A stretch of 64,000 nucleotides of DNA from an uncultured Lachnobacterium sp. GTDB taxonomy: Bacteria > Bacillota > Clostridia > Lachnospirales > Lachnospiraceae. This document shows, piece after piece, positions 3,928 through 22,131 of the stretch. Location of the stretch: NCBI GenBank assembly GCA_900546625.1, contig URDU01000012.1:1-64000 (forward strand), written 5' to 3'. A model generated the notes under the pieces. That model saw nothing but the letters and a program-made list of their open reading frames with translations. It was not told where the DNA came from and ran no database searches. The translations under genes and the position numbers were made by a program. Positions within the stretch are counted from its first letter, which is position 1. Every line of letters starts with the position of its first letter.

Positions 3928-4917
3928 TTAATCTTTATTTACAATTCTATCAAACATCTTTACAACTTTAATCTTAACTTTTGTTCCTAAAGAATATTTT
4001 ATCCGTGAATCATACTTTTTTTCCATCTCTTTAAAACTCAATTTGTGCATATCAACAAAAAACTCATCTCTTTGCAAAGGTCTTGTGCATGATCTATATT
4101 CGGCAGGATTACTTTTTACCGCTAACTCATATGATATTTCTTTAAATTTCATCTTACCGCTAATATGATTAAATATATCTTGTCCCTTATTAGTTCTTAT
4201 CAATACCAGTGATGTTCCAATTCCATCAAACAATTCAGGTAACTCTTTAACACCCCAAAAATCACCAAGTGTCAAATCTGACTCTAATTTTTTTTTTGCA
4301 ACACATTCATAACAAGATGGTCTCAGGCAAAAATTTCTTAAGAACATCTGCATATATGGATTCATATCTTTAGATATATAATTTTTTATTTCCTTATCTT
4401 GCGTATTTTTTTTTAGTATTTCTTTCATACCATAATTAATCCAGCTATCATCTTTACATCGAAATTCTATTTGTTTTAATTTTCCATCATTCTTTTCTTC
4501 TTGATTTCTTGCATACTTCTCCCATAAATAAGGTGATGGTACCCCATGGCAAATTACATCCGCACAAATTAGATTTTCATAATCCTTACCAAGAAAACCC
4601 TTAAGCCCATTTACCTGACACCCTGTTCCGGTAAAAAGTACTGTTTTTCCAGCAAGTAAATCATTTTTCACTTGTCTAAATATATTACCTATTTTTGCTT
4701 GTAAATATTTTGAACCTCTAAGTTTCTCCAATCCAATTTTATCTGTAACTGCGATAAATTCTGATGAATAACAATCCTCAGACATTGCTACACCATAAAC
4801 AATACCATTTTTATTAAAAACATATTCTGATATAGCGGAAAAAACTCCTCCCGATGAGCTGTTCAATCTCACATCTTTATTTTTATTATAACAAGCATAT
4901 ACTTTTTTTGCTTTCAT
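3928..4917 (-). CDS. Coenzyme F420 hydrogenase/dehydrogenase beta-subunit-like protein
   Basis: 329 residues. The N-terminal KVYACYNKN..RLNSSSGG and the following GTGCQVNGLKGFLG, CADVICHGVPS and CYECVAKKK..DLTLGDFWG are the hallmarks of the FrhB N- and C-domain family (PF04422/PF04432). Proteins of this type recur in Firmicutes and Bacteroides capsule loci, where they probably carry out a flavin-dependent redox step on the glycan or its precursor; the organism need not use F420. The usual N-terminal ferredoxin module is absent: the protein begins exactly where that module would end, and a free ferredoxin is encoded immediately downstream. It starts 15 bp after the flippase stop, so the two are co-transcribed. 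Confidence 0.8.
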   Translation of the reverse strand: MKAKKVYACYNKNKDVRLNSSSGGVFSAISEYVFNKNGIVYGVAMSEDCYSSEFIAVTDKIGLEKLRGSKYLQAKIGNIFRQVKNDLLAGKTVLFTGTGCQVNGLKGFLGKDYENLICADVICHGVPSPYLWEKYARNQEEKNDGKLKQIEFRCKDDSWINYGMKEILKKNTQDKEIKNYISKDMNPYMQMFLRNFCLRPSCYECVAKKKLESDLTLGDFWGVKELPELFDGIGTSLVLIRTNKGQDIFNHISGKMKFKEISYELAVKSNPAEYRSCTRPLQRDEFFVDMHKLSFKEMEKKYDSRIKYSLGTKVKIKVVKMFDRIVNKD

Positions 4918-4932
4918 TTACCCATCCCCCAT

Positions 4933-6444: not shown

Positions 6445-6471
6445 TTTATTAAACTTTCCTTATTCTACTAA

Positions 6472-7479
6472 CTAATCGACTTTTTTATTAAATCTTTCCG
6501 TTAAAAATAAAAGAGCTTTTTTTCTTTCTTCTTCTAATTTTTTATTTGTAACAGAGTAATCTATAATGCATTTTTTGAATGGTCCTTTGCCATCATCTAA
6601 ATGTACATCAAGCTTTGAAAATAATGTCTCAAATCTGCTTTGCATATTAATCCCCGCAGTATTACGATTAAGATAATAAACAGGCTTATGATATAAAATA
6701 GAAAATATCATACCATGATAAGAATCTGTAATCACATATTTTGCACAACTAATTAAATATAAAAACTGAGATGGCCCGACATTGAACCATTCCGTTCCTT
6801 TTGTTAATTGTATAAGTGAACATTTTTTACTTTTAGCAAAATCATTTAGTTTTTCATCTTCATTAGAATCTCCCAAACCATAATATAAAATATACTTATC
6901 TGGTAATGAATATTTAGGAACAATTATGTAATTGCTCCAAAAATCAGAATCAAACATCAGTGTAGGATCAATCAGAGTTTCAATTGATACTGACACAAAT
7001 TCTTTTAAAAGCTCTTTAGACTGTTTTTCTCTAACTGAAATAGCATCAAATCCTCGCATATACCACCTATAAAGGATTTTTTTCTTTTGGGGAATATTAT
7101 CTGTAGCCATACTGGGCGCATAAGCAACTCTCTTTTTTGTAGATGCAAATTTCAAAAAAAAAGTCCAATTTACATCTGGTGAATATGGTGACCATACTTG
7201 ATCACTTCCAACAACAAAAAAATCAAATGCCCCTAGTCCTTTTGGAATTTTATATTTGCCTATACTATCATAATAAAAATCAATAAATTTATTATTAAAA
7301 TATTCAAAACAAATATGTCTTTCCTCTTTTTCTAATTTCATATAACGTCTTGGTACAACTTGTGGAATAGTATATACCTCAAATCCAAAAGTTTTAAGTA
7401 ATTCCTGCACCGCTAAATTTTGTAATCGTTGTCCAAAATTATCTCCATATGTAAAAGTAAGAATTCCTATTTTCTTCAA
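6472..7479 (-). CDS. Polysaccharide pyruvyl transferase family protein
   Basis: 335 residues matching PF04230: GILTFTYGDNFGQRLQNLA at the N-terminus, VGSDQVWSP (about 90-98), DPTLM, and TDSYHGMIFSILYHKPVYYLNR in the C-terminal half. Family members transfer pyruvate from PEP to sugars, making ketals on exopolysaccharides. It starts with TTG (7479), preceded by AAAGGAAA at suitable spacing. Its pairing with a flippase and an F420-dehydrogenase-like gene is a common capsule-locus arrangement. Upstream (7480-7702) is a non-coding gap holding a decayed coding fragment. Confidence 0.87.
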   Translation of the reverse strand: MKKIGILTFTYGDNFGQRLQNLAVQELLKTFGFEVYTIPQVVPRRYMKLEKEERHICFEYFNNKFIDFYYDSIGKYKIPKGLGAFDFFVVGSDQVWSPYSPDVNWTFFLKFASTKKRVAYAPSMATDNIPQKKKILYRWYMRGFDAISVREKQSKELLKEFVSVSIETLIDPTLMFDSDFWSNYIIVPKYSLPDKYILYYGLGDSNEDEKLNDFAKSKKCSLIQLTKGTEWFNVGPSQFLYLISCAKYVITDSYHGMIFSILYHKPVYYLNRNTAGINMQSRFETLFSKLDVHLDDGKGPFKKCIIDYSVTNKKLEEERKKALLFLTERFNKKVD

Positions 7480-7544
7480 ATCAATTTCCTTTCACTCTTA
7501 TATTATGCTCAAAAGATATTTTATTTATAAATAATCATATTACC

Positions 7545-7660
7545 AGTAGCTTTGCATTCTCATAATCTAACTGTACCTCGAAATCTTCTAAATACGAGCT
7601 TTACATAGTAAATCGATACTTTCTCTGTATAGAGTGTGTCTCGAAGGTATACATTAAATT
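7545..7660 (-). pseudogene. Decayed coding fragment in the operon gap
   Basis: The minus strand reads ...QRKYRFTM, a stop, then SSYLEDFEVQLDYENAKLLVI and a stop at 7545. This looks like the tail of a lost protein within an otherwise tightly packed operon. The fragment is too short to assign; a removed glycosyltransferase or modification gene is possible. Confidence 0.25.
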
Positions 7661-7702
7661 ACACGCATCCTTGATATCTTTTACCACTTTAATCATTGTA
7701 TT

Positions 7703-9022
7703 TTACAAATCATTAATTTTCTTTTTACTCATTTCCCTATTTGTTACCCCCAGAACAATACCACAAAAAATAACAATAATACTTACAGTATTAATGCTAA
7801 TTAATTGGGTATAAAAGAACAATAATAATAAAACAACATATAATAAAACATATCCCAATCTGGATTTACTCGTTTTTCCGCTATATATAATTTTAATATA
7901 GTAGTTCATCCATACAATAAATACTACTACAGTAAAAAGTAATCCCCCCAAACATAAAAAAGCTCCTAAATCGGCTTGTCCAAAATGTCTAAAACCTAAT
8001 ACATCATCTGTATGCCATGGAAATGCTCCCATTCCATATCCCAATTTTAACGCATTATATTTATCGAATGCATATATTACCATATATAGTCTATCCGCAC
8101 TACCATACCCCAAAATACTATTTGATGTTGTCGCTTCAATTAAAAGTTCAACAGCATATATAAAATTCATATATATCTCATCACGAATAATAGGCACTGT
8201 TAAATATAAAAATATCCCCATTATTGTCCCTACAAAAATTATCATAACAAGATTAAAATTTTTTCTTTCTATTTTCTTTTTCATAAAATTTAATCGTTCT
8301 GTCAAATACAAATAGAATAGCAATGCCAATGGCAACTCTATGTATACCATTTTATTGTCATTAAATGAAGAAATAACAATTACAAATGCAATTAATATAA
8401 TAGAATATATGCGATATACATAATTCCTTATATAATTTGAATTACAAAAATCACTATAATACAAATTGAGAATAATTATAAAAATTGAAAATAGTCCAAA
8501 TTGAGGTGTTGCCGAGTATCCCATCAAACCACATATTAAATCCTCGTGCATAGGATTTATCCATGTAGATATACCTGACATAAATCCTTCCACTTGGATT
8601 TGAATGCATGAAACAATCATATTAAAAATAAAATATAAATTTATAATCCAAATAGAACTGTTTAAAATTTGTAATACAAAGTAATAACGATAATTAATAA
8701 TATACGAAACATATACTAATGGAATTATTGCATACAAAATCGATAAAAAATTTGAAATGAAAATATCTCTATGGTATTCATGGCCTAATTTTGCACTAAA
8801 ATATCCAATAACAAAAATAATCAAAATCCATCCCATGCTTTTTAAAATCGAAATTTTTATTTTACCAACTAATAATATTTCTACAACCAAACGAACCAAT
8901 ATTAAAAAACAAATAACTTTTATGCCTATATTTGATAAATTCAAATAATTCAAAACTGCAACTTGTATAAAAAGAAGGGAAAAAATAATTTTATCAAAAA
9001 AATCAAATAATATAGTTTTCAT
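7703..9022 (-). CDS. Wzy-like polysaccharide polymerase / O-antigen ligase-type membrane protein
   Basis: 439 residues with about 11-12 hydrophobic segments and a larger polar loop near residues 300-345 (containing YGSADRLYMV and GYGMGAFPWHTDDVLGFRHFGQAD). That layout is typical of Wzy polymerases and O-antigen ligases, which are poorly conserved in sequence. Being the only such protein in a locus with a flippase, it is the best candidate for joining repeat units outside the membrane. The SD AAGGAGAG precedes the ATG. Its start overlaps the stop of the upstream glycosyltransferase by 4 bp (ATGA), indicating translational coupling. Confidence 0.72.
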   Translation of the reverse strand: MKTILFDFFDKIIFSLLFIQVAVLNYLNLSNIGIKVICFLILVRLVVEILLVGKIKISILKSMGWILIIFVIGYFSAKLGHEYHRDIFISNFLSILYAIIPLVYVSYIINYRYYFVLQILNSSIWIINLYFIFNMIVSCIQIQVEGFMSGISTWINPMHEDLICGLMGYSATPQFGLFSIFIIILNLYYSDFCNSNYIRNYVYRIYSIILIAFVIVISSFNDNKMVYIELPLALLFYLYLTERLNFMKKKIERKNFNLVMIIFVGTIMGIFLYLTVPIIRDEIYMNFIYAVELLIEATTSNSILGYGSADRLYMVIYAFDKYNALKLGYGMGAFPWHTDDVLGFRHFGQADLGAFLCLGGLLFTVVVFIVWMNYYIKIIYSGKTSKSRLGYVLLYVVLLLLFFYTQLISINTVSIIVIFCGIVLGVTNREMSKKKINDL

Positions 9023-10311
9023 CTCAATCTCTCCTTTATTTTTTTATAAATGTTGCAACTCATGTGTATACATGAAAGTATTCTAAATTTATGTGCATTA
9101 TGAATCTCATGGTAAATCTCATGATTATTAACATAACTTTTAGGTGAAATTAGTAAACTTATATCTTCATTGATTTCATAATTTGAATAATAATGATCTG
9201 TACAACATTCCAATTTTTTTATGAATTCTTTTGGTCTTTTCATTAAATATATTAGTTCATCTATATTCTCAAATACCAACCCGCTGTTTTCTTTAATTAC
9301 ACTTTCTGCAATGTTTCCCGATTGATTATATGTAATAACTTGTGCACCAACGCTTCTCATTTCATAGTAAGTATAACTATATGTTTCTTGACATTTAGAC
9401 CATAAAAAAGCAATATCAATTTTATATTTTTTTGCTGCAAGAGACATCGCCTTATTCCCCTGAATTGATGCATCAACATAAACTGAAGTAACAGCTTCTC
9501 TTTTCACCTTTGATGCTCCTAAATAATAAAATTCATAATTAGAACTATTTTTAAAAGATTCATACAACTTTTCCCATTCACTAATTCCTTTGTGTTCAAA
9601 TTCTCCGCCAACATATGCAATTCTCAATGGAAATTTAAGTTTATTTTTTTTGCATTTAGTATCAAATTTCAAATGTCCTCTAATATGAATACGATCATTC
9701 CAATTTGGATAAGCAATTAAAATATTATTTTTCACATTAAGTGAGGGGGCGATAACTCCCCAAATCATATCATCTATTTCTTCATAAAAGAATTTGATCT
9801 TTTTTTGACTTATGGCTGCTAATGATTTATAACAACAGTCATCACATACCTTAAAATTTCCTTCAAAATTCTTACAACAAATGCTTCTATTCTTCAATAA
9901 TATTGGCGATTCAGGGCATATTGAAGTATAATCATGAATCCAAATCAAAATAGGAAGCGAAATGCTCTGCAAATAATCTTTCAAATAATCGTAATCATGA
10001 TTTAATACATTATGTATATGAACTCCTATAAAATTTACTTTATATTTTTTTTGTACCATATTCATAACGTTTGGTATGTCTTTATATAAATATATACCCA
10101 GAAATTTTTTATCATAGTTGATTCCAACTTTTCCATTCATGTTACTTAAATGCTGCAAACGGCTATTTTCTTCAAATGAAAAAATCTGAAAATAATGTAT
10201 TTCATTTTTTTTAAGCACACAAGCAATCTCTCTCATACATTTTTCAGTTCCAGCATTTCTATATAAATAATCCGAATGCGAAATTGCTATAATACATTTA
10301 CTATTCTTCAT
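9019..10311 (-). CDS. Glycosyltransferase, GT4-like (GT-B fold)
   Basis: 430 residues. The N-terminal half has a GT-B-type start (CIIAISHSDYLYRNAGTEKCMREIA) and a Cys-rich stretch (CPES...CCKNFEGNFKVCDDCCY, about residues 133-163) seen in some capsule GT4 enzymes. The C-terminal half has RIAYVGGEFEHKG, then SYTYYEMRSVGAQVITYNQSG, the donor-binding region. It would add one sugar to the lipid-linked repeat unit at the inner membrane face. It overlaps both neighbours by 4 bp. Substrates cannot be deduced. The Cys cluster might bind a metal. Confidence 0.75.
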   Translation of the reverse strand: MKNSKCIIAISHSDYLYRNAGTEKCMREIACVLKKNEIHYFQIFSFEENSRLQHLSNMNGKVGINYDKKFLGIYLYKDIPNVMNMVQKKYKVNFIGVHIHNVLNHDYDYLKDYLQSISLPILIWIHDYTSICPESPILLKNRSICCKNFEGNFKVCDDCCYKSLAAISQKKIKFFYEEIDDMIWGVIAPSLNVKNNILIAYPNWNDRIHIRGHLKFDTKCKKNKLKFPLRIAYVGGEFEHKGISEWEKLYESFKNSSNYEFYYLGASKVKREAVTSVYVDASIQGNKAMSLAAKKYKIDIAFLWSKCQETYSYTYYEMRSVGAQVITYNQSGNIAESVIKENSGLVFENIDELIYLMKRPKEFIKKLECCTDHYYSNYEINEDISLLISPKSYVNNHEIYHEIHNAHKFRILSCIHMSCNIYKKIKERLR

Positions 10312-11324
10312 ACTTGATTACCTTCTAAATAACTTTGCAACATTGAAAGCAGCCTAACCGGTGAGTACCTACCATCATAATCATAATTTACTATATCTAT
10401 TTTTCCTTGCAATAAAGTCTGAATTTCTTCCGTATTCTCAAAATAATACATATGATTTTTTTTGTAGTATGGTGTTTTTTTAACACTAGGATTATTTGTA
10501 AGTAATGCTTTATTATATTGTAATGCCTCGAAATAACGCAATGAAAGTCCACTCTGCTCTGGTATTCTAATATCAACAATTCCATATGATTTTGATAATT
10601 CTTCTACTACCTTGTCATATGGAATATATTTATTATAAATAATTCCATCGTCTTTGATCATTTCATTCTCTTCAACATCTGTAATTCTAAACAAGCATTT
10701 ATAACCACTCTTCTTAAGTGCAAAAAATGTGTCCATAATATAATCATATCTATTTTTCTTCTTACCCACAAAATAAAAATCGTATTCTTTTTTTGCTTTT
10801 GAAGGAATCAATCCCGAATATAAAGACGGAAAATAATGCAGTTTATATTTACTTGCATCATGATTATCAAACGTAAATATTTTATCCATATTCAAAGAAT
10901 TAATAATTTTTTTAACAGTATTACTATTTGCATTAAAATCGTGTTCACAAGAATTCAATAATATTAAACAATATGTTAAATTGTATTTTATCTTCAATCT
11001 TTTCCAAAAAATAAAATCGGTTTGTACACGCATTACATCTGAAAAAACAATAATATTTTTAAAATCGGTATCAAATTCAACGTCATTTATTGTATAATAT
11101 TTGCGCCATAGTTTCTTACCTGGAATATGCCAGAATAGATTTAATTTGAAACTATATTGCTTTTGTTCAACAGCGTCGAACATTTTTTTTAGTGGAAATT
11201 TTTCATATATTGGTGTATCTAAAAATATAACATTTTCTTTTTCAACTGCATCTTTCCACATATATTTTATATAGTCGTTTCCTGTTCCGATAATATAAAA
11301 TCTATATTTATTATATTTTTTCAC
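10308..11324 (-). CDS. Putative glycosyltransferase (CgeB/GT-B-like)
   Basis: 338 residues. The N-terminus (YRFYIIGTGNDYIKY) and the C-terminal EQSGLSLRYFEALQYNKALLTN...YYKKNHMYYF resemble the nucleotide-sugar-binding half of GT-B enzymes, with SGLSLRYFEAL equivalent to the usual E-x7-E region. There is no signal peptide or membrane segment. The N-terminal domain is divergent, so the assignment rests on the C-terminal half and on position inside the operon, with a 4-bp overlap to the next gene. Substrate unknown. Confidence 0.6.
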   Translation of the reverse strand: MKKYNKYRFYIIGTGNDYIKYMWKDAVEKENVIFLDTPIYEKFPLKKMFDAVEQKQYSFKLNLFWHIPGKKLWRKYYTINDVEFDTDFKNIIVFSDVMRVQTDFIFWKRLKIKYNLTYCLILLNSCEHDFNANSNTVKKIINSLNMDKIFTFDNHDASKYKLHYFPSLYSGLIPSKAKKEYDFYFVGKKKNRYDYIMDTFFALKKSGYKCLFRITDVEENEMIKDDGIIYNKYIPYDKVVEELSKSYGIVDIRIPEQSGLSLRYFEALQYNKALLTNNPSVKKTPYYKKNHMYYFENTEEIQTLLQGKIDIVNYDYDGRYSPVRLLSMLQSYLEGNQV

Positions 11325-11346
11325 TAAAAATCACCTGATTTCTTAA

Positions 11347-12264
11347 TTAATTCCGACAATCATAAAATCGAATATTATATATTAAATTGTTACATAAATC
11401 ATTTTCTATTTTATATGTCAATTTATGTATTGAACTTATTTTACAAATAATATCAAAAAATATCTCATTAATATTTTTTATATTTTTTTGCATTAATAAT
11501 GGAATATTTGCTGGGATAAATACCATTTTTTTAATGTCTTGTGGATATTTTTCACTTGCCATTTTCATAAAAATAAACATAATAAAATAATCCCTAATTT
11601 TGTTTTCTTTTCTCCAATATTCATTCATTAAATCTAGTGTAACTTGTAATATTCTATTATGGGCATTTGCCTTAATAAACCAGCTTTCACCAATTTTTGT
11701 AACATCGTAATCATTTGATTGATACATAAAAAAATCTGCGTTTTTTATATAATCTGGAAGTTTCCCTGTCATTAGTACTGTGGCATCAACCCAAATTCCA
11801 CCAAACTGTGTCAAAACACTCAATCTAACAAAATCTGAAAATAATGTGTTACTAATAATCCCTTTTTTCCACTTATTTATTATATAATCAGGGAGCTTAA
11901 CATATTCGAACAAATTATTCTGATCAATAACATGAATTTTTCTATCTGGCATCCATTTTTTTATTGATTGATAACATACTTTCACAATATCCGGAGCATT
12001 ATCTATCCCCTGCAACCAACAAATCCATACATTATCTGTTTCTATTCCACTATCCTTTTCATTATAACAGCATGAATTTAAAAACCTTGAATAATGCTTT
12101 TTTAAATATCTATATACTCTATTCCTGACTTCTAAATCTTGTAATTCATGATTTGAATATCCAAATTTTTCAAATAAAGCACATGGCATTTTATATCTAA
12201 GATTTCCATATTTCAATGCACGATTTAATGCACCTTTAAATCCTCCATCTAATTCATTAAGCAT
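11347..12264 (-). CDS. Capsular polysaccharide synthesis glycosyltransferase (GT32-like)
   Basis: About 305 residues matching the Caps_synth / glycosyltransferase sugar-binding family (PF05704): VWICWLQGIDNAPDIVKVCYQSI, SDFVRLSVLTQFGGIWVDATVL and a later SWFIKANAHNRIL. WVDA holds the expected metal/nucleotide-sugar Asp of the DxD-type motif. A GTG at 12273 is in frame, but AGGTGG sits just before the ATG at 12264, which I take as the start. The gene follows the acetyltransferase stop at 12274 almost directly, so it is in the same operon. Confidence 0.82.
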   Translation of the reverse strand: MLNELDGGFKGALNRALKYGNLRYKMPCALFEKFGYSNHELQDLEVRNRVYRYLKKHYSRFLNSCCYNEKDSGIETDNVWICWLQGIDNAPDIVKVCYQSIKKWMPDRKIHVIDQNNLFEYVKLPDYIINKWKKGIISNTLFSDFVRLSVLTQFGGIWVDATVLMTGKLPDYIKNADFFMYQSNDYDVTKIGESWFIKANAHNRILQVTLDLMNEYWRKENKIRDYFIMFIFMKMASEKYPQDIKKMVFIPANIPLLMQKNIKNINEIFFDIICKISSIHKLTYKIENDLCNNLIYNIRFYDCRN

Positions 12265-12273
12265 CTCTACCAC

Positions 12274-12679
12274 CTATTTTATAATGTGTGCAGGATTACC
12301 CACAACTGTTGCACCTGCCGGCACAGATTTTGTAACTACAGTTCCCGCTCCTATCACAGCATTTTCACCTACTTGAATATTCCCCAGTATTATCGCATAT
12401 GCACCTATTTTCACTCCCCCCCCCGATATGTGGAATGCCTTTATCGTTTGCACCTATTGTTACATGATGCTGAATTAAAACATTTTTTCCTACAACAGCA
12501 TTTTCATTAATAACAGTACCTAATCCATTGTGGGCAAAATTTACACTCGAAGAAAGGCAATTATTGGGATGAATATCACAATAAAAGTAATGTTTGCAAA
12601 ACCAATATATAAACTTCTTGCATAATTTTGATTTACTTTTACAACCAAATTTTATAACCTTATTTATATCTAAATCCAT
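12274..12679 (-). pseudogene. Serine-acetyltransferase-like hexapeptide-repeat protein, frameshifted in a G9 tract
   Basis: The start is ATG 12679, with AAGGTG 6 nt upstream. The frame reads [19 protein letters not shown], a left-handed beta-helix acetyltransferase pattern, up to GIPHIGGG, then derails. The plus strand has nine C at 12416-12424. With eight, the frame continues [21 protein letters not shown]...[10 protein letters not shown] and stops exactly at 12274, giving a complete protein of about 134 residues. A single base in a homopolymer therefore decides the product. It could be slipped-strand phase variation, a fixed mutation or a sequencing error. The intact protein would O-acetylate a sugar of the polysaccharide. 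Confidence 0.85.
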
Positions 12680-12689
12680 TTTTATCACC

Positions 12690-13748
12690 TTATAACTCTG
12701 AATAAATAGCACTCAACTTTTGATGCATCACATCCATACTAAATTTCTGATCAATCAGATTTCTATTAGCTATTCCAGCACTTTTTATAGAATTCTCATC
12801 TTTACAGTACTTTAGTAGTGCATCAGCCAATGCCTTAATATCTCCTGGCTCAATAAGAATTCCATTTTCTTCTTTTACTACTTCTGGAATAGCTCCCACC
12901 ATTGTACTTATAATTGCTTTACCACAAGCCATCCCCTCCAATATAGCCATTGGTAACCCCTCGTTATATGATGGTAAAACTAATACACTGGATTTTTTCA
13001 AAAGTTCTAATTTCCTCTTAAAATCTGCCCATCCTATGATTAAAATATTATGCTCTAGCTTATTATCTTTTACTAACTCTTCACATTTTTCAATTTCACC
13101 ATCTCCAGCCAAATAACATAAAATATCAGGAATTTCAGATCGAACTAGATTAATTGCATTAATCAAATCATATGTGCCCTTTCTTTGCCCCAGTCTACCA
13201 AGTGCAACAAACGTATGCGGATGATCTTTATAATCCGAAATGGCTGGTTTTAGACGTTCTGTATCAATACCATTTTCAAGCACAATACAGTTGTTTAATC
13301 CAAATGTTTTATCAAATTTATTCTTCCATTCATCAGACAATGCTATAACTTTATCGGCAGAATTAAGAATAGAACAGATTTTTTTCTTATTATTGCTCTT
13401 ATTATAAAATTCCATGTATTCCGCACCATGCACGTGCAGAATCACTTTTTTTCCCCATCTTTTTGCTGCATTCACATACCAGCCTTTTCTAAAAGTGCTG
13501 CCATATGACGCTGTGTGAATATGATAAATATCATAACTTCGTTTTGTTATATAAAAATGTAAAAATGACCATACTGAGTATGCCAAAACTGTTAATATAT
13601 TTCCATCTATATAAGATTCATAAATTTCTATATCATATTGCTCATTTAATATTTTATCTTTTGATATTTCTTCAATTACCGTTGCCATTCCCCCTTTCGA
13701 TTTTGTAGGGCTTGGTCCAACAACCAATATTCTTTTCTTTTCTGTCAT
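12690..13748 (-). CDS. Glycosyltransferase family 4
   Basis: 352 residues, a clear GT4 enzyme: RILVVGPSPTKSKGGMATVI at the N-terminus (glycine-rich acceptor loop), FVALGRLGQRKGTYDLI at the start of the second Rossmann domain, and PSYNEGLPMAILEGMACGKA, the E-x7-E donor-binding motif. A retaining glycosyl transfer from an activated nucleotide sugar is expected, on the inner face of the membrane. It is followed after 10 bp by the frameshifted acetyltransferase. Confidence 0.88.
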   Translation of the reverse strand: MTEKKRILVVGPSPTKSKGGMATVIEEISKDKILNEQYDIEIYESYIDGNILTVLAYSVWSFLHFYITKRSYDIYHIHTASYGSTFRKGWYVNAAKRWGKKVILHVHGAEYMEFYNKSNNKKKICSILNSADKVIALSDEWKNKFDKTFGLNNCIVLENGIDTERLKPAISDYKDHPHTFVALGRLGQRKGTYDLINAINLVRSEIPDILCYLAGDGEIEKCEELVKDNKLEHNILIIGWADFKRKLELLKKSSVLVLPSYNEGLPMAILEGMACGKAIISTMVGAIPEVVKEENGILIEPGDIKALADALLKYCKDENSIKSAGIANRNLIDQKFSMDVMHQKLSAIYSEL

Positions 13749-13805
13749 TCTTAATCCTTTTTAAATCGATAATTTATACTTTATCTTGCTAATTTATAAA
13801 TCAAC

Positions 13806-14705
13806 TTAAATACTTCTCTTTATATTTCCCCAATACGGAATCTCCAATTTTTGTCCAAACATTAAATCTGTTTCATATTTGATATCTGGATCAAACCCCG
13901 AATTCGGTGACAATGTTATTTCACCAAAATATATCTTCCCATCGACGTTATACAAATCTATTCTTGCAAACACAAAATCTTTTGAGAGTTCTTTTGCAAT
14001 ATCTATCATTTCATCTAAATTCTTAGGCTTTTGTATATCAACATTTTTTATGTTTTCATCACCTTTGTTTAGTGGTTGAAACTGCCATTCCTGATTGAAA
14101 AAATAATATGATGCTCTGTGTGTATTTTTACTAAATCTGTCTTTACACACCAAAATCACATCTGGCACCCCATTAAAACAATATATCTTATAGTCCATCG
14201 GAACATTACCGTTATCAGAAATAAACTTTTCACACAAAATCATTGGCTTTATATTACGATACTGATACTCTCGTCCAATATAAAAAAAATTACTATTTAA
14301 TGATTTTTCAATCTTTCTTTTGGCTTCGATATGATCTAGTTTTTCTTTATCGTTGCAAACCACTAACCCACCTGAATCATGATTACACTTCAGAACAAAT
14401 TTTTCCGGCAACAACGAAAAATCTATATCGTCATATTTCTTCCAACTTCCTATCAATGGAATCAAATATTTCTCTCCAATTTTATCCTTCACATACTCTC
14501 GTACAAGCAATTTATCAGACACTATGGATTGCAGTGGAAATCTATAATTAAACTTTAACCACTGTAATTTTTCATTCAAAGTGATTGGATTATTCATATT
14601 GAGCTTTCTTCCAACCCGTAATCTATAATATAGTTTTATGTAACTTTTATCAGGTAAAAATCTTAGACTTTTTTTTGCAAAAGTCATTATTTTATCTCTG
14701 TTCAT
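13806..14705 (-). CDS. TupA-like ATP-grasp protein
   Basis: 299 residues of the TupA-like ATP-grasp family (PF14305) found in teichuronopeptide and capsule loci. Visible marks are LNEKLQWLKFNYR, VSDKLLVREYVKDKIGEKYL, LPEKFVLKCNHDSGG (nucleotide-binding lysine and glycine-rich loop), EKFISD and the metal-binding ARIDLYNVDGKIYFGEIT near the C-terminus. ATP-grasp enzymes join a carboxylate to an amine, so it may attach an amino acid or similar group to a uronic acid of the polymer; ugd in the same operon could supply that uronic acid. Annotation pipelines often call this family a glycosyltransferase. Confidence 0.82.
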   Translation of the reverse strand: MNRDKIMTFAKKSLRFLPDKSYIKLYYRLRVGRKLNMNNPITLNEKLQWLKFNYRFPLQSIVSDKLLVREYVKDKIGEKYLIPLIGSWKKYDDIDFSLLPEKFVLKCNHDSGGLVVCNDKEKLDHIEAKRKIEKSLNSNFFYIGREYQYRNIKPMILCEKFISDNGNVPMDYKIYCFNGVPDVILVCKDRFSKNTHRASYYFFNQEWQFQPLNKGDENIKNVDIQKPKNLDEMIDIAKELSKDFVFARIDLYNVDGKIYFGEITLSPNSGFDPDIKYETDLMFGQKLEIPYWGNIKRSI

Positions 14706-14707
14706 TT

Positions 14708-15199
14708 TTAAATTTCCTTTATAAATTCTTCTATACTATCTATAATATTTTTAGTATTTGATACATAGCTAGCATATTTTGTATTTCTAACCGTTTTTAA
14801 TGCTATTTCCAAATCTTCCGTTGCTTTACACGAATATATCAGATTCAAATCATCAAACTGTTTAATTAACTGTAGTTGATGATCATCTACATGTTCTCCA
14901 TATTTTGCCAGCCTCGGAACAGCAATAACCTTTTTTCCTAGTTTAACAGCTCCGATAATTGCACCTGTTCCACCATGAGTTATAACAATATCAGCATTTC
15001 CCATTTCCATACCAAATTTATCTCTATCCAAAAAATTTTCATATTTATAATTCTTTGGAATGTAATCACTGTATCCAACCTGTGCAAAAACATTTTGTGA
15101 TTTAATTATTTCTTTTTCGCACAATTCATCTACTGCTTTTAATAATCTATTAAACTGAAATTTTTGTGAGCCTAATGTGATAAATATTCTTTCACACAT
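14708..15199 (-). CDS. Alg13-like glycosyltransferase subunit (PssE/EpsF type)
   Basis: 163 residues matching the GT28 C-terminal domain (PF04101): IFITLGSQKFQFNRLLKAVDEL at the N-terminus and NADIVITHGGTGAIIGAVKLGKKVIAVPR, the nucleotide-sugar-binding loop. Proteins of this length work as the donor-binding half of a two-subunit enzyme whose membrane-anchored half is Alg14-like. That partner is the gene directly upstream (15200-15673), and start and stop codons abut. Together they probably add the second sugar to the lipid carrier. Confidence 0.85.
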   Translation of the reverse strand: MCERIFITLGSQKFQFNRLLKAVDELCEKEIIKSQNVFAQVGYSDYIPKNYKYENFLDRDKFGMEMGNADIVITHGGTGAIIGAVKLGKKVIAVPRLAKYGEHVDDHQLQLIKQFDDLNLIYSCKATEDLEIALKTVRNTKYASYVSNTKNIIDSIEEFIKEI

Positions 15200-15673
15200 T
15201 TAATATATTCCTCCCAAATAAACAGCTTTAGGATAAAACTTTAACATTGACTCCCACTGTACGTAAAACCTATCAGCAAATTTATAAAGTAATTTTCCTG
15301 TTTCAGTTGGAGATGTAACTTTTGCAAATGACTCAATATAAATAAGTTCTTTTCCCATTATTTTTGAAATCATACATATAGGAATCATTGCCAAAACACC
15401 TGTACATATGATTACATCCGGTTTTTCTTTTCTATAAATTCCTATTGATTTCCATACATTTTGAATCATAGTCCAAATAAGATTTTTTTCTTTACGATTA
15501 ACCTGATTCAAATAATAAATCTTCTCTCCTTTTGTCTCAGCACTATAATTTGTCTTTTCAGTAATTACAAAACTGTCGTATTTTTCCATAAGAGGTTTCA
15601 ACATCAAAAGCTGTTCATAATGACCGCCTGATGAAGCAGCGAAACATATTTTAATTTTTTTCTTATCATCCAT
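15200..15673 (-). CDS. Alg14-like glycosyltransferase subunit (PssD type)
   Basis: 157 residues of the Alg14 family (PF08660): KICFAASSGGHYEQLLMLKPL with the SGGH loop, VIICTGVLAMIPICMI as the hydrophobic membrane-associating segment, and YIESFAKVTSPTETGKLLY. It recruits the Alg13-like catalytic subunit to the membrane and provides the acceptor site. It lies 2 bp after ugd and abuts its partner gene. Confidence 0.85.
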   Translation of the reverse strand: MDDKKKIKICFAASSGGHYEQLLMLKPLMEKYDSFVITEKTNYSAETKGEKIYYLNQVNRKEKNLIWTMIQNVWKSIGIYRKEKPDVIICTGVLAMIPICMISKIMGKELIYIESFAKVTSPTETGKLLYKFADRFYVQWESMLKFYPKAVYLGGIY

Positions 15674-15675
15674 GT

Positions 15676-16923
15676 TTAATCCCTCTCAAATATATCTCTC
15701 GTATAAACCTTTTCTTTTACATCATCAAGTTCTTCATTATATCGATTTGCAATTATGGCCTGACTCACAATCTTAAACTTATCCAAATCGTTAATAACTA
15801 CACTTCCAAAGAATGTTTCTCCATCCTTTAGTGTTGGTTCATAGACAATTACAGTAGCTCCTTTAGCCTTAATCCTCTTCATAACTCCTTGAATAGAACT
15901 CTGTCTAAAATTATCACTGTTACTCTTCATTGTTAAACGATATACACCAACAATTACTTTTTTCTCTTTTTTTACACTAAATTCGTTGTCGTCATCATAA
16001 CCATAATAACCTGCAAGCTTCAAAACACGGTCTGCAATAAAATCTTTTCTAGTTCTATTACTTTCAACAATAGCCCCAATCAGATTTTCAGGGACATCGG
16101 CATAATTTGCTAACAATTGTTTAGTGTCTTTTGGCAAGCAATATCCACCATATCCAAATGAAGGATTATTGTAATGACTTCCTATACGAGGATCAAGACA
16201 AACTCCTTCTATTATTTGTTTGGTGTTTAATCCTTTACTTTCTGCATATGTATCCAACTCATTAAAATAAGCTACTCGCAATGCTAAATATGTATTAGCA
16301 AAAAGCTTAACAGCTTCTGCCTCTGTAAATCCCATAACAAGCGTATCAATATTATTTTTTATAGCGCCTTCTTGCAGCAATACAGCAAACTCATTGGCAG
16401 CTTTCATAAGTTTTTCATCTTCTAAATCGGTACCTACTATAATTCTTGAAGGATATAAATTATCATATAAGGCTTTACTTTCTCTTAAAAATTCCGGACT
16501 AAAAATAATATTTTTCGTACCATACTTTTTACGTACACTCGCTGTATAACCAACCGGAATCGTTGACTTGATTACCATAATGGCATTAGGATTGCATTTA
16601 AGAACCATTTCAATAACATTTTCTACAGCTGTAGTATCAAAATGTTGTGTTTCAGAATCATAATTTGTTGGTGTAGCTATAATCACAAAATCAGCATCCT
16701 TATATGCCATTTTTCCATCTAAAGTAGCTGTCAAATCAAGTTTTTTTTCATTTAAATACTTTTCTATATACTCATCTTGAATAGGTGATATTCGTTTATT
16801 TATCAAATCAACCTTTTCTTTAATAACATCTACAGCCACTACCTTGTTGTGCTGTGACAACAAGGTAGCAATTGATAGTCCAACATAGCCTGTTCCAGCA
16901 ACTGCAATTTTTACGTTTTTCAT
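15676..16923 (-). CDS. ugd: UDP-glucose/nucleotide-sugar 6-dehydrogenase
   Basis: 415 residues. Oxidises a UDP-hexose to the uronic acid with two NAD+. The N-terminal Rossmann motif is AGTGYVGLS (about 9-17), followed by [20 protein letters not shown]. The catalytic cysteine sits in [14 protein letters not shown]. The C-terminal NAD/UDP domain ([19 protein letters not shown]) is complete. Its product is a likely precursor of an acidic polysaccharide. AT-rich codon use matches the genes downstream and differs from the sugar transferase upstream, placing the compositional boundary near 16.95 kb. Confidence 0.92.
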
Positions 16924-16981: not shown

Positions 16982-18430
16982 TTATACTGCTCCCTCATTC
17001 TTCATCACTCTTATAATAGTATGAAAAATAATCTTAATATCCCCCTTCACACTCCACTCCCCAATATACTGAGTATCCAGCTTTACCACTTCTTCAAAGT
17101 CCGTGATATTACTCCTGCCACTCACCTGCCACAGCCCGGTCAATCCCGGTCTGAATGACATTCTGGCTCTGTGGTGTGGTTCATACTTCTCCCACTCATC
17201 GAGTGTTGGTGGTCGTGTTCCTACCAGGCTCATATCACCCTTGAGGATGTTCCAAAACTGCGGCAGCTCATCTATTGATGTCTTCCTTATAAACTGTCCT
17301 ATGCCGGTTTCCTTTGTTCCATCAGACAGTATCCTGTTGCCTATGATTCTCGGATCGAAGTCCATCTTGAACATCATTCCGTCGCTCACCTTGTTTTGTG
17401 CCGCAAGTTCCTTCTTTCGCTCCTCGGCATCCATGTACATACTTCTGAATTTGTACATCCTGAACTTTCTTCCGTTTCTGCCGATTCGCTCCTGTGCGAA
17501 GAAAATCGGTCCCGGTGATGCTATACGGATTGCCGGTCCCACAAATATCGTCACTATCAAAGTGATGATGCATCCGACCAGTCCTCCGAGTATGTCCATG
17601 CCTCTTTTTGCAAGAAGCTGTGTGGTGCTCGCATAGTTCATACTGGCGGTGATGACTGTATAGTCACCGATTTTTTCTATCTGATTAAAGCTGCCTGCCA
17701 TGGACTTGTTTTTGGTGATGCCTCTGTGAACGGCTATTCCCATCTCAAGAAATATGTCTGCCATTTCATAGGGATATTCGCTCTCCGCACATGGTGGGAT
17801 AAGCACCTCATCAACCCATTCCTCACAGGCATAGTCCACTATCCCGTCGTGGTTTGCAACTATTGGTATCTCGCATATTGTTTTTCCCTTCAGGTCGGCA
17901 TCTGTTGCCGCTGCCACTATCTGTGTGTATCCAAAGCTGTTATCCTTTAGTCCCTGAAGTGTCTCCTCAAGGAGCTTTTCCTGTGCTATGACAAAGAGTG
18001 ATTTTTTTGATGAAGCAAAGCTTCTTTTTTTGATAATTTTCTTTAACACCACTCTGCCTAAGTACGACACAAGAATATATATTGGAATCATGATGTAGTA
18101 AGACATACGCGAATATATCTCGCCCATCTGTGTGGTAAACAGGAAGAAGGTTGTTATTATTTCTACAAGTGCCACATGCTTACATGTAGCTATGAGCTCA
18201 TCAAGATAACCGCGCTTCAATACATTTTTGAAGGCATCGGATACTATTTCCACGAAGAAATCTATGAGCATAAATGCTGTTGCAAGTATCCTGTAGTCCT
18301 TATCTATGTATGGATTGTCAGGTCCAAAGCGCCATATGTATGAGACTATGAATGCTATCTGCATGCACAGGACATCTAATAGCATAAAATCTATATGCTT
18401 TGTCCAGCCTCTTCCTTTCTTTCTGTACAT
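16982..18430 (-). CDS. Polyprenyl-phosphate sugar-1-phosphate transferase (initiating enzyme)
   Basis: 482 residues. About four membrane helices (within 12-130) precede a CoA-binding-like middle domain, then the catalytic bacterial sugar transferase domain (PF02397): KRGMDILGGLVGCIITLIV, GPIFFAQERIGRNGRKFRMY, KFRSM, DELPQFWNILKGDMSLVGTRPP, and FRPGLTGLWQVSGRS. It transfers a sugar-1-phosphate from a UDP-sugar to undecaprenyl phosphate, the first step of repeat-unit assembly (WbaP/EpsL type). It is the first biosynthetic gene of the operon, 32 bp after the helicase stop. Its codon use is less AT-rich than the downstream genes, like the core chromosome. Confidence 0.92.
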   Translation of the reverse strand: MYRKKGRGWTKHIDFMLLDVLCMQIAFIVSYIWRFGPDNPYIDKDYRILATAFMLIDFFVEIVSDAFKNVLKRGYLDELIATCKHVALVEIITTFFLFTTQMGEIYSRMSYYIMIPIYILVSYLGRVVLKKIIKKRSFASSKKSLFVIAQEKLLEETLQGLKDNSFGYTQIVAAATDADLKGKTICEIPIVANHDGIVDYACEEWVDEVLIPPCAESEYPYEMADIFLEMGIAVHRGITKNKSMAGSFNQIEKIGDYTVITASMNYASTTQLLAKRGMDILGGLVGCIITLIVTIFVGPAIRIASPGPIFFAQERIGRNGRKFRMYKFRSMYMDAEERKKELAAQNKVSDGMMFKMDFDPRIIGNRILSDGTKETGIGQFIRKTSIDELPQFWNILKGDMSLVGTRPPTLDEWEKYEPHHRARMSFRPGLTGLWQVSGRSNITDFEEVVKLDTQYIGEWSVKGDIKIIFHTIIRVMKNEGAV

Positions 18431-18462: not shown

Positions 18463-20523
18463 CTATTTCCAGTTCATCCCTATACTGTCGAGCCTTGCTA
18501 TGCGCTCTGTGTCGAGCACCATGCCGCTGGCCTTCGGGTTTTTTCTTTTACATCTGATATTTGATATCCAGCGTCCCAGCTTCACTCCGTCTGTGGAGTA
18601 TGATACCGGTACATCCAGATTGCCGTTTTTCTCGTAATATGTTTTTGCAAGCTCAAACTTTCTGTTCCACTGTATGGCCGTCTTGCTTTCTGACCTGTAG
18701 CCTATGCTCTGCAGGCGCTTTAGCTGCTCGTCTGTCATTGAGCGGCTATTGGTCTGGTTGGACAGCCACCGTCCAAGCGGTATGCCGTCTGCTGTGACAT
18801 ACTTTGCAGGTACTTCGAGGTTGCCATGCTCCTTGTAGTAGGTCTTGGCTGCGCTGTAGTACTCTTCCCACTTCTGCTTGTTGTGGTCCCATATCATGCC
18901 AAGCTCCTCTAAAGCTTTTCTCTGCTCATCGGTGAGCGCCTGCTCTATGCCATACTTTTTCACCTTGAAGCGCATGTTGTTGATCCATGAGCCAAGCCTA
19001 AAACCTGTAGGCGATACGTATTTGGCTTTGATGTCCAGATTGCCGTAGGTATTGCGGTAGCTTTTAAGCTCCTCAAGCACCTCCTGCCAGCTTGAGTCCG
19101 TGACATCCCATATCATGCCTATGTCGTTTAGCTTTTGTATCTTTTCCCAGGTGAGGTTTCCGGATATATTGCCTGACTTCACACGCCTCTGGGTGTTTAT
19201 CCATGCTCCCAGTGTGAGGCCTGACTCAGTTACATAGCTCTTTGGTATCTTGAGATTGCCATTTTCCTCATACCACTGCTTTGCCGCCTCATAGTATGTG
19301 TCCCAGGCACTTCCCAGATTCTCCTGCAGGCGCATGAATATCTCCCTGCTGTCCTTGGTCTCGTCTATGATGCGGAATCTGTCGTCAAAATGCTCTCTTG
19401 GCGAATGAGTGTCCGGATACAGTAAAAATGCTTCCTGCATCTCGTTTTTCAGGCAGTCTATGCAGTAGAGGCTGTCGAAGTTATTGACCAGGTCAAATAT
19501 GACCGGTTGGTTTTTACTTCCTGCTGACAGTGCTCTGCCTATCTGCTGCAGATAGATGATTGGCGACACTGTAGGGCGAAGCAGTATTACTCCGTCCACA
19601 TCGTCCACATGTATGCCCTCGTTCAGCATGTCTATGCAGTAGAGGAGCTTTAAGTGGCTTCCTGTGTCCTTTTTGAATTCGGCAAAGGCTTTGCTGGTCG
19701 ACGCTTCGTTGTAGTACGCTGTGTATATGTGTGGCTTTTTGTCCACCTTGCTAAACCAGTCGGCAGCCTGCGACTTCATCTCATCCATATGCTCTCTGCC
19801 TGAGCAGAATACTATGTATTTGCCATCAGGCTTTGTCATCTGTCTGGCAAAGACCTCTGTGAGGCCGTCTGCCTGCTCGAGTGCACGCTTTAGCTGCTCT
19901 AGAAGCTTTTCGTTTTCCGATACAAGTCCCGGGTTTGATAAGCCCTCGATTCGTTTTTTCAGTTGTTCGAGCTCTTTCTTGTATGAATACATGGCTATAA
20001 CATATTTAGGCTCCGGAAGTATTTCCCTCACGATTGCTTCTCCGAGTGTCATCTCTGAGGCTATGTTGCCCTCAAAGAGCTCCTCTGCCATATTGCGCTG
20101 GTTGTCCAGATAGCGTATGTTTGTCGCTGAGAGCCCCAGGCGCTTTGCCTTCGGATATGCTTCCAGAAGCTTCTTCACACTCTTGCCCCACTCTGCGGCT
20201 CCACAGCGGTGGAACTCATCGAGTATGATGTAGTCAGGGTGCAGGGTGTCTATGCTGTCCTCATGCTTCATGAGTCTGCTGTACGACATGTATTCTATGT
20301 TTGAGAACTGTGTGTCTATGTTCTCAATCTGTGTCTTGTAGATGTACTCACTTGGCGATAGCCATAGAAAATGCTTGTGTGGATGCTGCTCCACGAGCTT
20401 GAAGGCTATCATCGACTTGCCCGTGCCTGTCGGATGGATGACGGCTGCCATCTGCTTGTCCTCCAGCATGGTTTCGACTGCTCTGTATGCATCTTCGTTG
20501 TGTTTGTAAAGATGTATGCTCAT
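18463..20523 (-). CDS. SF2 DEAD/DEAH-box helicase with four helicase-associated (HA) repeats
   Basis: 686 residues. The helicase core has Walker A HPTGTGKS (about 30-37), IILDEFHRCGA (DEFH box), LGLSATN (motif III), and the C-terminal RecA domain with EGIHVDDVDGVILLRP and QQIGRALSAG (motif VI). From about residue 405 come four HA repeats (PF03457) of about 65 residues, each with W...YY.AAK.YY.E.GNL.VP..Y....G..LG.WI. HA domains are thought to bind nucleic acid. The SD GGAGG precedes the ATG at 20523. It heads the polysaccharide operon and directly follows the recombinase switch. I see no nuclease or methylase domain, so its role (regulatory, DNA repair or defence) is open. Confidence 0.85.
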   Translation of the reverse strand: MSIHLYKHNEDAYRAVETMLEDKQMAAVIHPTGTGKSMIAFKLVEQHPHKHFLWLSPSEYIYKTQIENIDTQFSNIEYMSYSRLMKHEDSIDTLHPDYIILDEFHRCGAAEWGKSVKKLLEAYPKAKRLGLSATNIRYLDNQRNMAEELFEGNIASEMTLGEAIVREILPEPKYVIAMYSYKKELEQLKKRIEGLSNPGLVSENEKLLEQLKRALEQADGLTEVFARQMTKPDGKYIVFCSGREHMDEMKSQAADWFSKVDKKPHIYTAYYNEASTSKAFAEFKKDTGSHLKLLYCIDMLNEGIHVDDVDGVILLRPTVSPIIYLQQIGRALSAGSKNQPVIFDLVNNFDSLYCIDCLKNEMQEAFLLYPDTHSPREHFDDRFRIIDETKDSREIFMRLQENLGSAWDTYYEAAKQWYEENGNLKIPKSYVTESGLTLGAWINTQRRVKSGNISGNLTWEKIQKLNDIGMIWDVTDSSWQEVLEELKSYRNTYGNLDIKAKYVSPTGFRLGSWINNMRFKVKKYGIEQALTDEQRKALEELGMIWDHNKQKWEEYYSAAKTYYKEHGNLEVPAKYVTADGIPLGRWLSNQTNSRSMTDEQLKRLQSIGYRSESKTAIQWNRKFELAKTYYEKNGNLDVPVSYSTDGVKLGRWISNIRCKRKNPKASGMVLDTERIARLDSIGMNWK

Positions 20524-20555
20524 TTGCTGCCTCCGGGTGAAACACTACATTAAAA

Positions 20556-20604
20556 GGGAGGTTGGAATTCGCAGATTATTACAATCTGCGAAATCCAACC
20601 TCCC
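20556..20604 (-). terminator. Long hairpin between recombinase and helicase (contains inverted repeat IR-L)
   Basis: GGGAGGTTGGA (20556-20566) plus TTCGCAGATT pairs with AATCTGCGAA plus TCCAACCTCCC (20594-20604): 21 of 22 stem positions match, with a 5-nt loop ATTAC. On the minus strand it is followed by TTTTAATG, so it should terminate transcription arriving from the recombinase. Only 32 bp, without a promoter, separate it from the helicase ATG. Confidence 0.75.
20568..20592 (+). repeat. Inverted repeat IR-L of the recombinase segment
   Basis: A 25-bp site: TTCGCAGATT + ATTAC + AATCTGCGAA. It is the exact reverse complement of 22030-22054, on the other side of the recombinase gene. The asymmetric 5-nt centre fixes the orientation, so recombination between the two copies would invert 20568-22054. 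Confidence 0.75.
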
Positions 20605-20634
20605 CTATGTATAAAATAAGCATTTATATAAATT

Positions 20635-20652
20635 TGACCATTTTTATGACCA
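20635..20652 (+). promoter_or_regulatory. Paired TGACCA motifs, possible integrase arm-binding sites (left)
   Basis: TGACCA at 20635-20640 and 20647-20652 are direct repeats with a 12-bp period. An identically spaced pair lies at 21876-21893 beyond the other end of the recombinase gene. Short direct repeats near core sites are typical of arm-type sites bound by the N-terminal domain of tyrosine integrases. Confidence 0.4.
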
Positions 20653-20653
20653 C

Positions 20654-21787
20654 TTATGGGATAACTATAGAATTGATTGCGGAGCGCTTGGTCTCCAGAT
20701 TTGGATGCACATAGCGGTTCAATGTAATATTCACATTGGAATGTCCAAGAATCTCACTTACACTCTTAGCATCGGCACCGCTGCTGATACAGTTTGTGGC
20801 AAAGGTATGGCGCAAAGCATGAAAGTGAGTATCACCGATACCTGCCTCTCTTAAATAGATATGAAATTTATTCTGATAAGTGCGGGGATCCATAGGCTGA
20901 TTTTTCTTTAGAAAATAAGAGTCACTTTTTATTGAAGTGTTATAATAATCTGACAGCTTGTCATATATAAAGTCCGGGATAGGAATCTCACGAAGTGAAT
21001 TTGAAGTCTTGGGTGAATCTATATATAAAGAAGTCTTTTTTGTGGCAGTGTGGTTATTTTGCAATGAACCGGATGTGTTTACTGTGTCTACCGGAAGCCT
21101 CTGCACTGTGCGATTGACATGCAGAGTGCGACCAATCATGTCGATATCTTCCCATTTCAGGGCACAAATTTCCCCTAAACGAAGCCCCATAAAAAGGCAC
21201 AATAAAATACCGAGCTTATAGATATCAAGCTCGGTAAGAAGATACTTGGTTAGCTTTTGCTGGTCAGTTGTATTGATTGTATTTATGCTGTTTGAGGATG
21301 TGGCGGATGAAAGCCTTGCCCTGTACGACAGATGGATTTCCCCGGTGCCATATGTGGCAGCTCCATATGCAAGGATAGAATTGAATATACAAAATATGCT
21401 CTTTATAACGCTCTCACCGGCTGTTTCAGGCAGTACCTTGAGTATTTCATTCTGATTTAACTCTCCTATGATACGTTCTCCCCAGTTCGGTTTGATGTAT
21501 TTATTGTATATAGTAGAATACTTTTGAATGGTGGAGAGCTTCCGGCTGGTTGCTATGCTTTCAAGCCATTTCTCAGCGACTTCTTTTACGGTGATAGTGG
21601 ACTGCTTTGGGGCTGCCGTTTGATTAAGTGAAGCTGCTTTTGCTGTAAGCAGCCTTTCTGTTACTTCCTTATAGCTGTGGCCGTATACCGATTTGCACTT
21701 TTTACTGCCGGCTATGTCTACTATGTAGTAGCGGCCCTCCCATCGTCCGTCGGCTCTCTTTCTGATGTTGGTTCCTCTTCTTGACAT
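20654..21787 (-). CDS. Tyrosine recombinase (phage-integrase family)
   Basis: 377 residues. The N-terminal part has an arm-binding-type domain (GRWEGRYYIVDIAGSKKCKSVYG), then a SAM-like core-binding domain (TITVKEVAEKWLES...), then the catalytic domain with R203 in GLRLGEICALKW, HALR (H323, R326), LGH (H349) and the nucleophile Y359 in NRYVHP. All key residues are present, so it should be active. The SD AAGGAGG lies 8 nt before the ATG. It carries no excisionase or other phage or ICE genes, and is bounded by exact 25-bp inverted repeats. This suggests a DNA invertase acting on its own segment and not the integrase of a larger element. Confidence 0.9.
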   Translation of the reverse strand: MSRRGTNIRKRADGRWEGRYYIVDIAGSKKCKSVYGHSYKEVTERLLTAKAASLNQTAAPKQSTITVKEVAEKWLESIATSRKLSTIQKYSTIYNKYIKPNWGERIIGELNQNEILKVLPETAGESVIKSIFCIFNSILAYGAATYGTGEIHLSYRARLSSATSSNSINTINTTDQQKLTKYLLTELDIYKLGILLCLFMGLRLGEICALKWEDIDMIGRTLHVNRTVQRLPVDTVNTSGSLQNNHTATKKTSLYIDSPKTSNSLREIPIPDFIYDKLSDYYNTSIKSDSYFLKKNQPMDPRTYQNKFHIYLREAGIGDTHFHALRHTFATNCISSGADAKSVSEILGHSNVNITLNRYVHPNLETKRSAINSIVIP

Positions 21788-21875
21788 GTCTGTTTCCTCC
21801 TTAAAATATATATGTATATATATAATTTATAGGAAGAAGAATATTAACTCCATATAATATCTTCTGTTTTATTTC

Positions 21876-21893
21876 TGACCACCATTTTGACCA
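21876..21893 (+). promoter_or_regulatory. Paired TGACCA motifs, possible integrase arm-binding sites (right)
   Basis: TGACCA at 21876-21881 and 21888-21893, with the same 12-bp period and orientation as the left pair (20635/20647). They lie upstream of the recombinase gene, so binding there could also regulate it. Confidence 0.4.
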
Positions 21894-21971
21894 TCTAAAA
21901 CTAAAAAATATATAAAATACATCCCAATAATCCCTTAAAAATGTAAAAAGATACAAAAAAAGATACAGCAG

Positions 21972-22000
21972 TTGACATAAATTGACTAAAGTTTTATTAT
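21972..22000 (+). promoter_or_regulatory. Strong outward-facing sigma-A promoter inside the invertible segment
   Basis: TTGACA (21972-21977) is followed after exactly 17 bp by TATTAT (21995-22000), reading rightward. In this orientation the transcript, starting near 22007, would meet the hairpin plus T-run at 22030-22060 and end after about 50 nt without reaching a gene. After inversion it would lie at about 20622-20650, reading into the helicase and polysaccharide operon. Confidence 0.7.
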
Positions 22001-22029
22001 ATATCTAGTGTTTTTTAACAGAGGTGAAG

Positions 22030-22060
22030 TTCGCAGATTGTAATAATCTGCGAATTTTTT
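22030..22060 (+). repeat. Inverted repeat IR-R, doubling as a plus-strand terminator
   Basis: The 25-bp site TTCGCAGATT + GTAAT + AATCTGCGAA (22030-22054) is the exact reverse complement of IR-L. It is followed by a run of T (to 22061), so the 10-bp stem can stop transcription from the promoter at 21972. The gap 21788-22131 otherwise holds the recombinase leader, the arm-like motifs and the promoter. Confidence 0.75.
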
Positions 22061-22085
22061 TATTCTTTCGGATTAAGACATTAGC

Positions 22086-22123: not shown

Positions 22124-22131
22124 TTGCATGT

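Follow-up and report, generated by a model that had tools for sequence, protein, structure and literature searches.

The best-known phase-variable surface sugars are those of Bacteroides, where invertible promoters stand before the polysaccharide operons of the UpxY/Mpi capsule loci and the first gene of such an operon may be regulatory. In Salmonella, the H-segment carries the gene for the recombinase Hin inside the DNA that flips and an outward promoter at one of its ends, and invertible promoters reportedly were also the subject of work by Jiang and colleagues in 2019. Sections of PMC5903667 name Hin as lying inside its own segment, name Mpi, and describe a putative 844-bp segment with a recombinase ORF within inverted repeats, likened to fimbrial switches; sections of PMC11892184 name UpxY and tie a Clostridia inverton group, 139, to tyrosine recombinase group 35. 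Recombinases within invertible segments and Clostridia invertons tied to tyrosine recombinases are already known (PMC5903667, PMC11892184).

Here we analyse a stretch of 64,000 nucleotides from an uncultured Lachnobacterium sp. (the window), in which a 1.49-kb segment at the head of a polysaccharide operon appears to be an invertible promoter, that is, a phase-variation switch with its own recombinase, drawn OFF; we put the probability of this reading at about 0.87. The segment resembles the H-segment in enclosing its recombinase gene and in its one-end outward promoter, but Hin is a serine recombinase, whereas the window enzyme has a Phage_integrase (tyrosine) domain and probable arm sites, and its target would be a polysaccharide operon. 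With the UpxY/Mpi loci it shares an invertible promoter heading polysaccharide genes; Mpi, however, is a serine recombinase acting on scattered sites, whereas the family described here has an internal tyrosine recombinase and a helicase or TnpB-like head gene. From Tn1549/Tn916, to which its integrase is related by fold and distant sequence comparison, it differs in its matching inverted centres and in that no conjugation or excision gene was found among the ORFs of at least 90 aa in the segment, of which there is one. Inverton group 139 likewise has an inverted-repeat segment and a linked tyrosine-type recombinase and is mostly found in Clostridia; in the sections of PMC11892184 considered, however, two of its examples span about 255 bp and recombinases are linked when they intersect a segment or lie within 5 kb, whereas the window recombinase lies inside. 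The 844-bp segment also encloses a recombinase ORF but, as presented in those parts of PMC5903667, is a single putative example with 14-bp imperfect repeats, unlike the exact 25-bp sites of the window. None of the matches listed in a literature search that covered few subscription journals describes this Lachnospiraceae architecture. What is new here are phased TGACC pairs, recombinase-less versions before the same helicase, and apparently nuclease-dead TnpB-like head genes in sister operons. Surveys aimed at short segments that have a recombinase next to them could overlook recombinase-containing segments of 1.4 kb.

Layout of the segment and its likely operon

The elements of the locus, in window coordinates, are:

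3928..16923, minus: remaining genes of the likely operon (UDP-glucose dehydrogenase, PssD, PssE, TupA-like, glycosyltransferases, pyruvyl transferase, flippase-like, FrhB-like; some ORFs match no family)
16982..18430, minus: exopolysaccharide polyprenyl glycosylphosphotransferase
18463..20523, minus: head gene, a ResIII/DEAD-type helicase of 686 aa in which helicase-associated (HA) domains are repeated
20556..20604, minus: terminator-like hairpin in the recombinase/helicase interval, 22 bp followed by UUUU, −42.4 kcal/mol
20568..20592: left core recombination site, TTCGCAGATT-ATTAC-AATCTGCGAA, with 10-bp arms
20635..20651, plus: probable arm-type pair TGACC-N7-TGACC, lying 42 nt inward from the left core
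20654..21787, minus: tyrosine recombinase, 377 aa (Phage_integrase, E 2.8e-28)
21854..21881, minus: putative recombinase promoter TGGTCA-16-TATTAT, weak (9 of 12)
21876..21892, plus: probable arm-type pair TGACC-N7-TGACC, lying 137 nt inward from the right core
21972..22000, plus: outward promoter TTGACA-17-TATTAT, at present directed away from the operon
22026..22058, plus: right hairpin with T-run, −19.2 kcal/mol, which would, as drawn, stop an outward transcript
22030..22054: right core recombination site, TTCGCAGATT-GTAAT-AATCTGCGAA, same arms, inverted relative to the left

The segment, 20568-22054, thus has the recombinase ORF enclosed by two inverted 25-bp core sites, as a preliminary description of this DNA had stated. 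The core pattern TTCGCAGATT-N5-AATCTGCGAA, with up to three mismatches, has these two matches in 64 kb and none in 100 shuffles, and a repeat listing of the window gives the pair as a 32-nt inverted repeat of 94%. Because the arms are palindromic, the 5-bp centre alone fixes the orientation of a site, and ATTAC and GTAAT set the pair in inverted orientation, again as described earlier; inverted repeats with matching crossover centres also bound invertons. Rfam, at gathering thresholds, has no match within 18000-25000.

Of 65 promoter-like sites counted in 15.2 kb at a lower threshold, where shuffles give a mean of 70.0, the outward promoter alone matches at 11 of 12 positions. Its aim, outward from inside the right end into a terminator, agrees with the hairpin and T-run found there, and coordinate mapping (x to 42622-x) bears out that inversion would shift it to 20622-20650, facing the helicase; as in an inverton, the internal promoter would switch target on inversion. 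The helicase had been said to have no promoter of its own, and indeed none of the promoter-like sites listed, which leave aside five weaker ones, lies on the minus strand from its start (20523) to 20942. From the spacing of the genes, the compact, helicase-led polysaccharide run left of the segment (16.6 kb, 3928-20523) is likely co-transcribed.

A coupled terminator swap had also been proposed, in which inversion would leave a 10-bp stem without a U-run in place of the left hairpin (arms 20556-20577 and 20583-20604, 22 bp, 95%). The modelled inverted leader contradicts this detail: GAGGU/ACCUC pairing lengthens the stem, and CCUUUU follows. The hairpin is weaker after inversion (−42.4 to −22.9 kcal/mol), so this part of the proposal stands, but the U-run persists, and inversion would therefore weaken the barrier without removing it. 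The hairpin and UUUU of the modelled ON leader might allow transcription attenuation.

Related segments and their orientations

A related recombinase (E 1e-40 or better) occurs in 93 of 397 Lachnospiraceae genomes sampled, switch status being examined only at fetched loci. We fetched 60 regions, mostly from the best matches and with some good matches left out; 56 contain a recombinase match long enough to use, and adding the window and L006 gives 58 recombinases. Exact inverted repeats of 16-39 nt flank 48 of them, and the spans run from 1.08 to 1.95 kb, most being close to 1.4-1.5 kb; these loci are not independent (L081, L083 and L086, for example, come from one genome), and some pairs of 16-17 nt may be chance, since 7% of control ORFs have one. 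The other ten (L068, L072, with just 243 bp of upstream sequence, L077, L079, L090, L110, L113, L119, L122 and L124) show no exact flanking pair of at least 16 nt, and a looser search (20-mers, up to four mismatches) found a weak pair in L113 (4/20 mismatched) and none in the other nine. Because the exact-repeat search filters on inverted matches, it cannot alone test orientation. Without that filter, two exact-arm sites are found in the window, G001, G010, G085, G244 and G458, and the centres are reverse-complementary in all six, with five different centres among them; seven other genomes (G016, G029, G102, G333, G375, G398 and G409) have a single exact-arm site.

Promoters were scored in the first 140 nt inward from either end of the 48 segments, with 20 shuffles each. 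At the recombinase-5′ end the outward score exceeds the shuffled mean in 48/48 and is at least 9 in 38; at the opposite end the corresponding numbers are 12 and 0. Every segment would thus have an outward promoter, on the recombinase-5′ side in all cases. Inward, a score of 9 is attained in 6/48 and 1/48 at the two ends. An inward promoter for the recombinase was rejected as a family trait, with 26/48 above the shuffled mean, in a test made partial by its 140-nt span, as the recombinase usually starts farther in.

Both orientations exist between homologous loci, as they do for invertons. In one genome (G427), the paralogous loci L083 and L086 carry a 1,418-bp segment (95.0% identity over 1,431 bp) in opposite directions relative to flanks that match at 91.8% over 2,523 bp and 93.5% over 248 bp, the sides being exchanged with breakpoints at the sites. 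A TnpB-like head gene lies on the recombinase-3′ side (OFF) at seven loci and on the 5′ side (ON) at four, a TadZ head gene is OFF once and ON once (L116/L120), and DUF4379 is found once in each state (L084/L118). Together with the family architecture and the outward promoters, these orientations support the earlier proposal of a self-encoded invertible promoter before a polysaccharide operon, drawn OFF.

Exit hairpins were modelled for 38 of the 48 members (30 OFF, 8 ON), leaving out ten whose target side is unclear. In OFF members the mean energy is −14.2 kcal/mol toward the non-target side and −13.7 toward the target, with mean U counts of 2.2 and 2.1. In ON members it is −16.9 toward the target and −12.0 toward the non-target, against expectation, and the U counts, 0.6 and 2.2, go in the expected direction. 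Many modelled exits in relatives are without a U-run. With no consistent energy swap among the modelled members, we rejected the terminator swap as a family design.

Phased TGACC pairs occur in all 30 members of one recombinase branch and in 1 of 18 of the other. Both pairs lie in the segment and point the same way, one at 36-55 bp from its core and the other near the recombinase start; in the window the latter and the first hexamer of the likely recombinase promoter overlap. The pairs are probable arm-type sites, a new element of these switches.

A close relative of the window is the uncultured Lachnospiraceae RUG297 (L001; same contig positions as G001/L066), whose segment contains an HTH_3 regulator gene (L066:8472-8951) absent from the window and G016. 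We rejected its loss in the window: G016 also lacks the gene, with a junction nearly as in the window, so insertion in L066 is more likely. At another locus, L078:8676-10328 (G046), sugar transferase-like genes flank the segment, facing away from it on each side, and additional inverted stretches surround the core; a single flip there might select between two operons.

Head genes and recombinase-less versions

The helicase itself leads to further pairs. We collected 33 helicase homologue loci with the N-terminus, 29 of them (not all from different genomes) with at least 900 bp upstream. An inverted pair of at least 16 nt lies just upstream of 22 of the 29, as against 37 of 542 control ORFs from the fetched loci, switch targets included; the other seven helicase homologues have no such pair upstream. 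The promoter points OFF in 17 of the 22, ON in three (L083, L142 and L144), and is unclear in two (L128 and L134). In L142, from the same genus and with a helicase 70% identical, the recombinase is present and reversed, and TTGACA-17-TACTAT reads through the core site into the helicase, making this the ON form.

Half of the pairs (11/22) have no recombinase in the upstream stretch. One, L103 in G085, is a 424-bp segment with the same arms and TTGACA-17-TATTAT, OFF; the G085 recombinase is on a different contig, where a lone imperfect site that shares the centre (ATTTT) lies 102 bp downstream of it. These recombinase-less pairs, with a recombinase elsewhere in G085, suggest that the enzyme may act in trans. 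A second type of core site, resembling GTAATGAAG with CTTCATTAC, stands before other helicase homologues (L127, L130, L131, L135, L139, L140 and L141), pointing to another recombinase specificity with the same head gene.

A sister operon group has a TnpB/Cas12f-like protein as its head gene (11 loci in one cluster, among them L082:9033-10406, L087:6051-7394, L075, L085, L089, L091, L096, L098, L100 and L108). TnpB family matches were obtained for 2/2 tested with Pfam and 4/4 tested with PADLOC. In ten aligned proteins, other residues occupy the positions we take to be those of the RuvC acidic motif, so that these head genes are apparently nuclease-dead, and the protein is a candidate TldR-like regulator of glycan operons.

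Proposed recombination mechanism and alternative readings

The closest solved relative of the recombinase, in fold as in distant sequence comparison, is Tn1549 Int. R203, K260, H323, R326, H349 and Y359, which we take to be the active site, are invariant in an alignment of 14 recombinase sequences. In the predicted model the N-terminus forms three strands and one helix, a putative arm-binding domain; the structure comparison spans mostly residues 61-377.

These features are consistent with the following mechanism. If active in the window strain, the integrase, of Tn1549/lambda fold, would bind both inverted core sites and probably also the TGACC pairs, and would exchange strands within the 5-bp centre. 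The centres match only if the sites are paired as inverted copies, and the exchange would flip about 1.46 kb. In the OFF state the strong promoter would fire away from the operon into the hairpin with its T-run, and the 22-bp hairpin would part the recombinase from the helicase. In the ON state the promoter, its −10 element some 100 bp ahead of the helicase ATG, would drive the helicase and the polysaccharide genes, with a presumable change in their expression and in the polysaccharide phenotype. More tentatively, and possible rather than favoured, a lambda/Tn1549-type integrase may have been domesticated in Lachnospiraceae into a stand-alone flip module that uses arm-type sites and heads a class of surface-glycan operons with a nucleic-acid-binding regulator as first gene. 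On this tentative view, with the TGACC pairs inside the segment and one of them near the recombinase start, the enzyme would control its own expression as well as the direction or rate of flipping, and the regulator (HA-domain helicase or nuclease-dead TnpB-like protein) would silence or open rival operons. The picture that emerges is of a self-contained switch, widespread in Lachnospiraceae, that may alter how these abundant gut bacteria appear to phages and the immune system, and its conserved sites, promoter and head genes offer a handle to find such loci and read ON or OFF from ordinary sequencing data.

The switch could instead be real in the family yet locked OFF in the window lineage and heading for loss, which we consider unlikely. 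The window, G001 and G016 represent the same locus and are all OFF, so the window locus itself was not seen ON, and G016 has a truncated recombinase besides its single exact site. Furthermore, among the 120 best listed recombinase alleles, 12 close to that of the window (P0007-P0010, P0013, P0018, P0020, P0034, P0036, P0052, P0093 and P0100) run into other sequence at various residues from 185 onward, so that loss recurs; the search detects only fusions retaining the recombinase N-terminus. In eight of the 12, the partner has a helicase-associated, glycosyltransferase, pyruvyl transferase, epimerase or EpsG-type Pfam domain, and the joints look as if deletions into the operon had recurred. In the window, however, the recombinase is full length and intact with its putative active-site residues, no mismatch is present in either core or either TGACC pair, and dN/dS relative to L066 is 0.20 (0.06 for the helicase), all of which speaks against a locked switch.

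Less probable still is a minimal mobile element of the Tn916/Tn1549 kind, an integrase with its ends that excises and inserts, the orientations stemming from separate insertions. The relationship to Tn1549 Int, the TGACC pairs at both ends and the several head genes, for which well supported branches of the recombinase tree force three changes of the helicase label and three of the TnpB-like label, would fit such an element. Insertion into new targets does not predict centres that are inverted copies in every exact-arm pair seen, however, and the flanks exchanged at the sites in L083/L086 and the recombinase-less inverted pairs before the same helicase also speak against it. That the palindromes are merely terminators, their inverted match a relic without recombination, is scarcely credible: both sites fold into hairpins followed by T-runs, but a terminator has no need of the centre, which is reverse-complementary within pairs yet different between them, and many modelled exits of relatives have no U-run. 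We also rejected a phage origin: viral contigs gave no match by the exact site pattern and none by the recombinase, considering close relatives only. Among plasmids, 12 records match the recombinase, all below 60% identity (31-35% in the ten rows listed). One homologue of 645 aa from the protein collections carries the name Agathobacter rectalis.

Around the locus, 22151-22273, just outside the right site, is 72% identical over 123 nt to part of 23853-24689, a PD-(D/E)XK transposase-family gene, and L001 has a 315-aa relative at this place. Past the end of the polysaccharide run, 613-1791 is an AbiH-like abortive infection gene.
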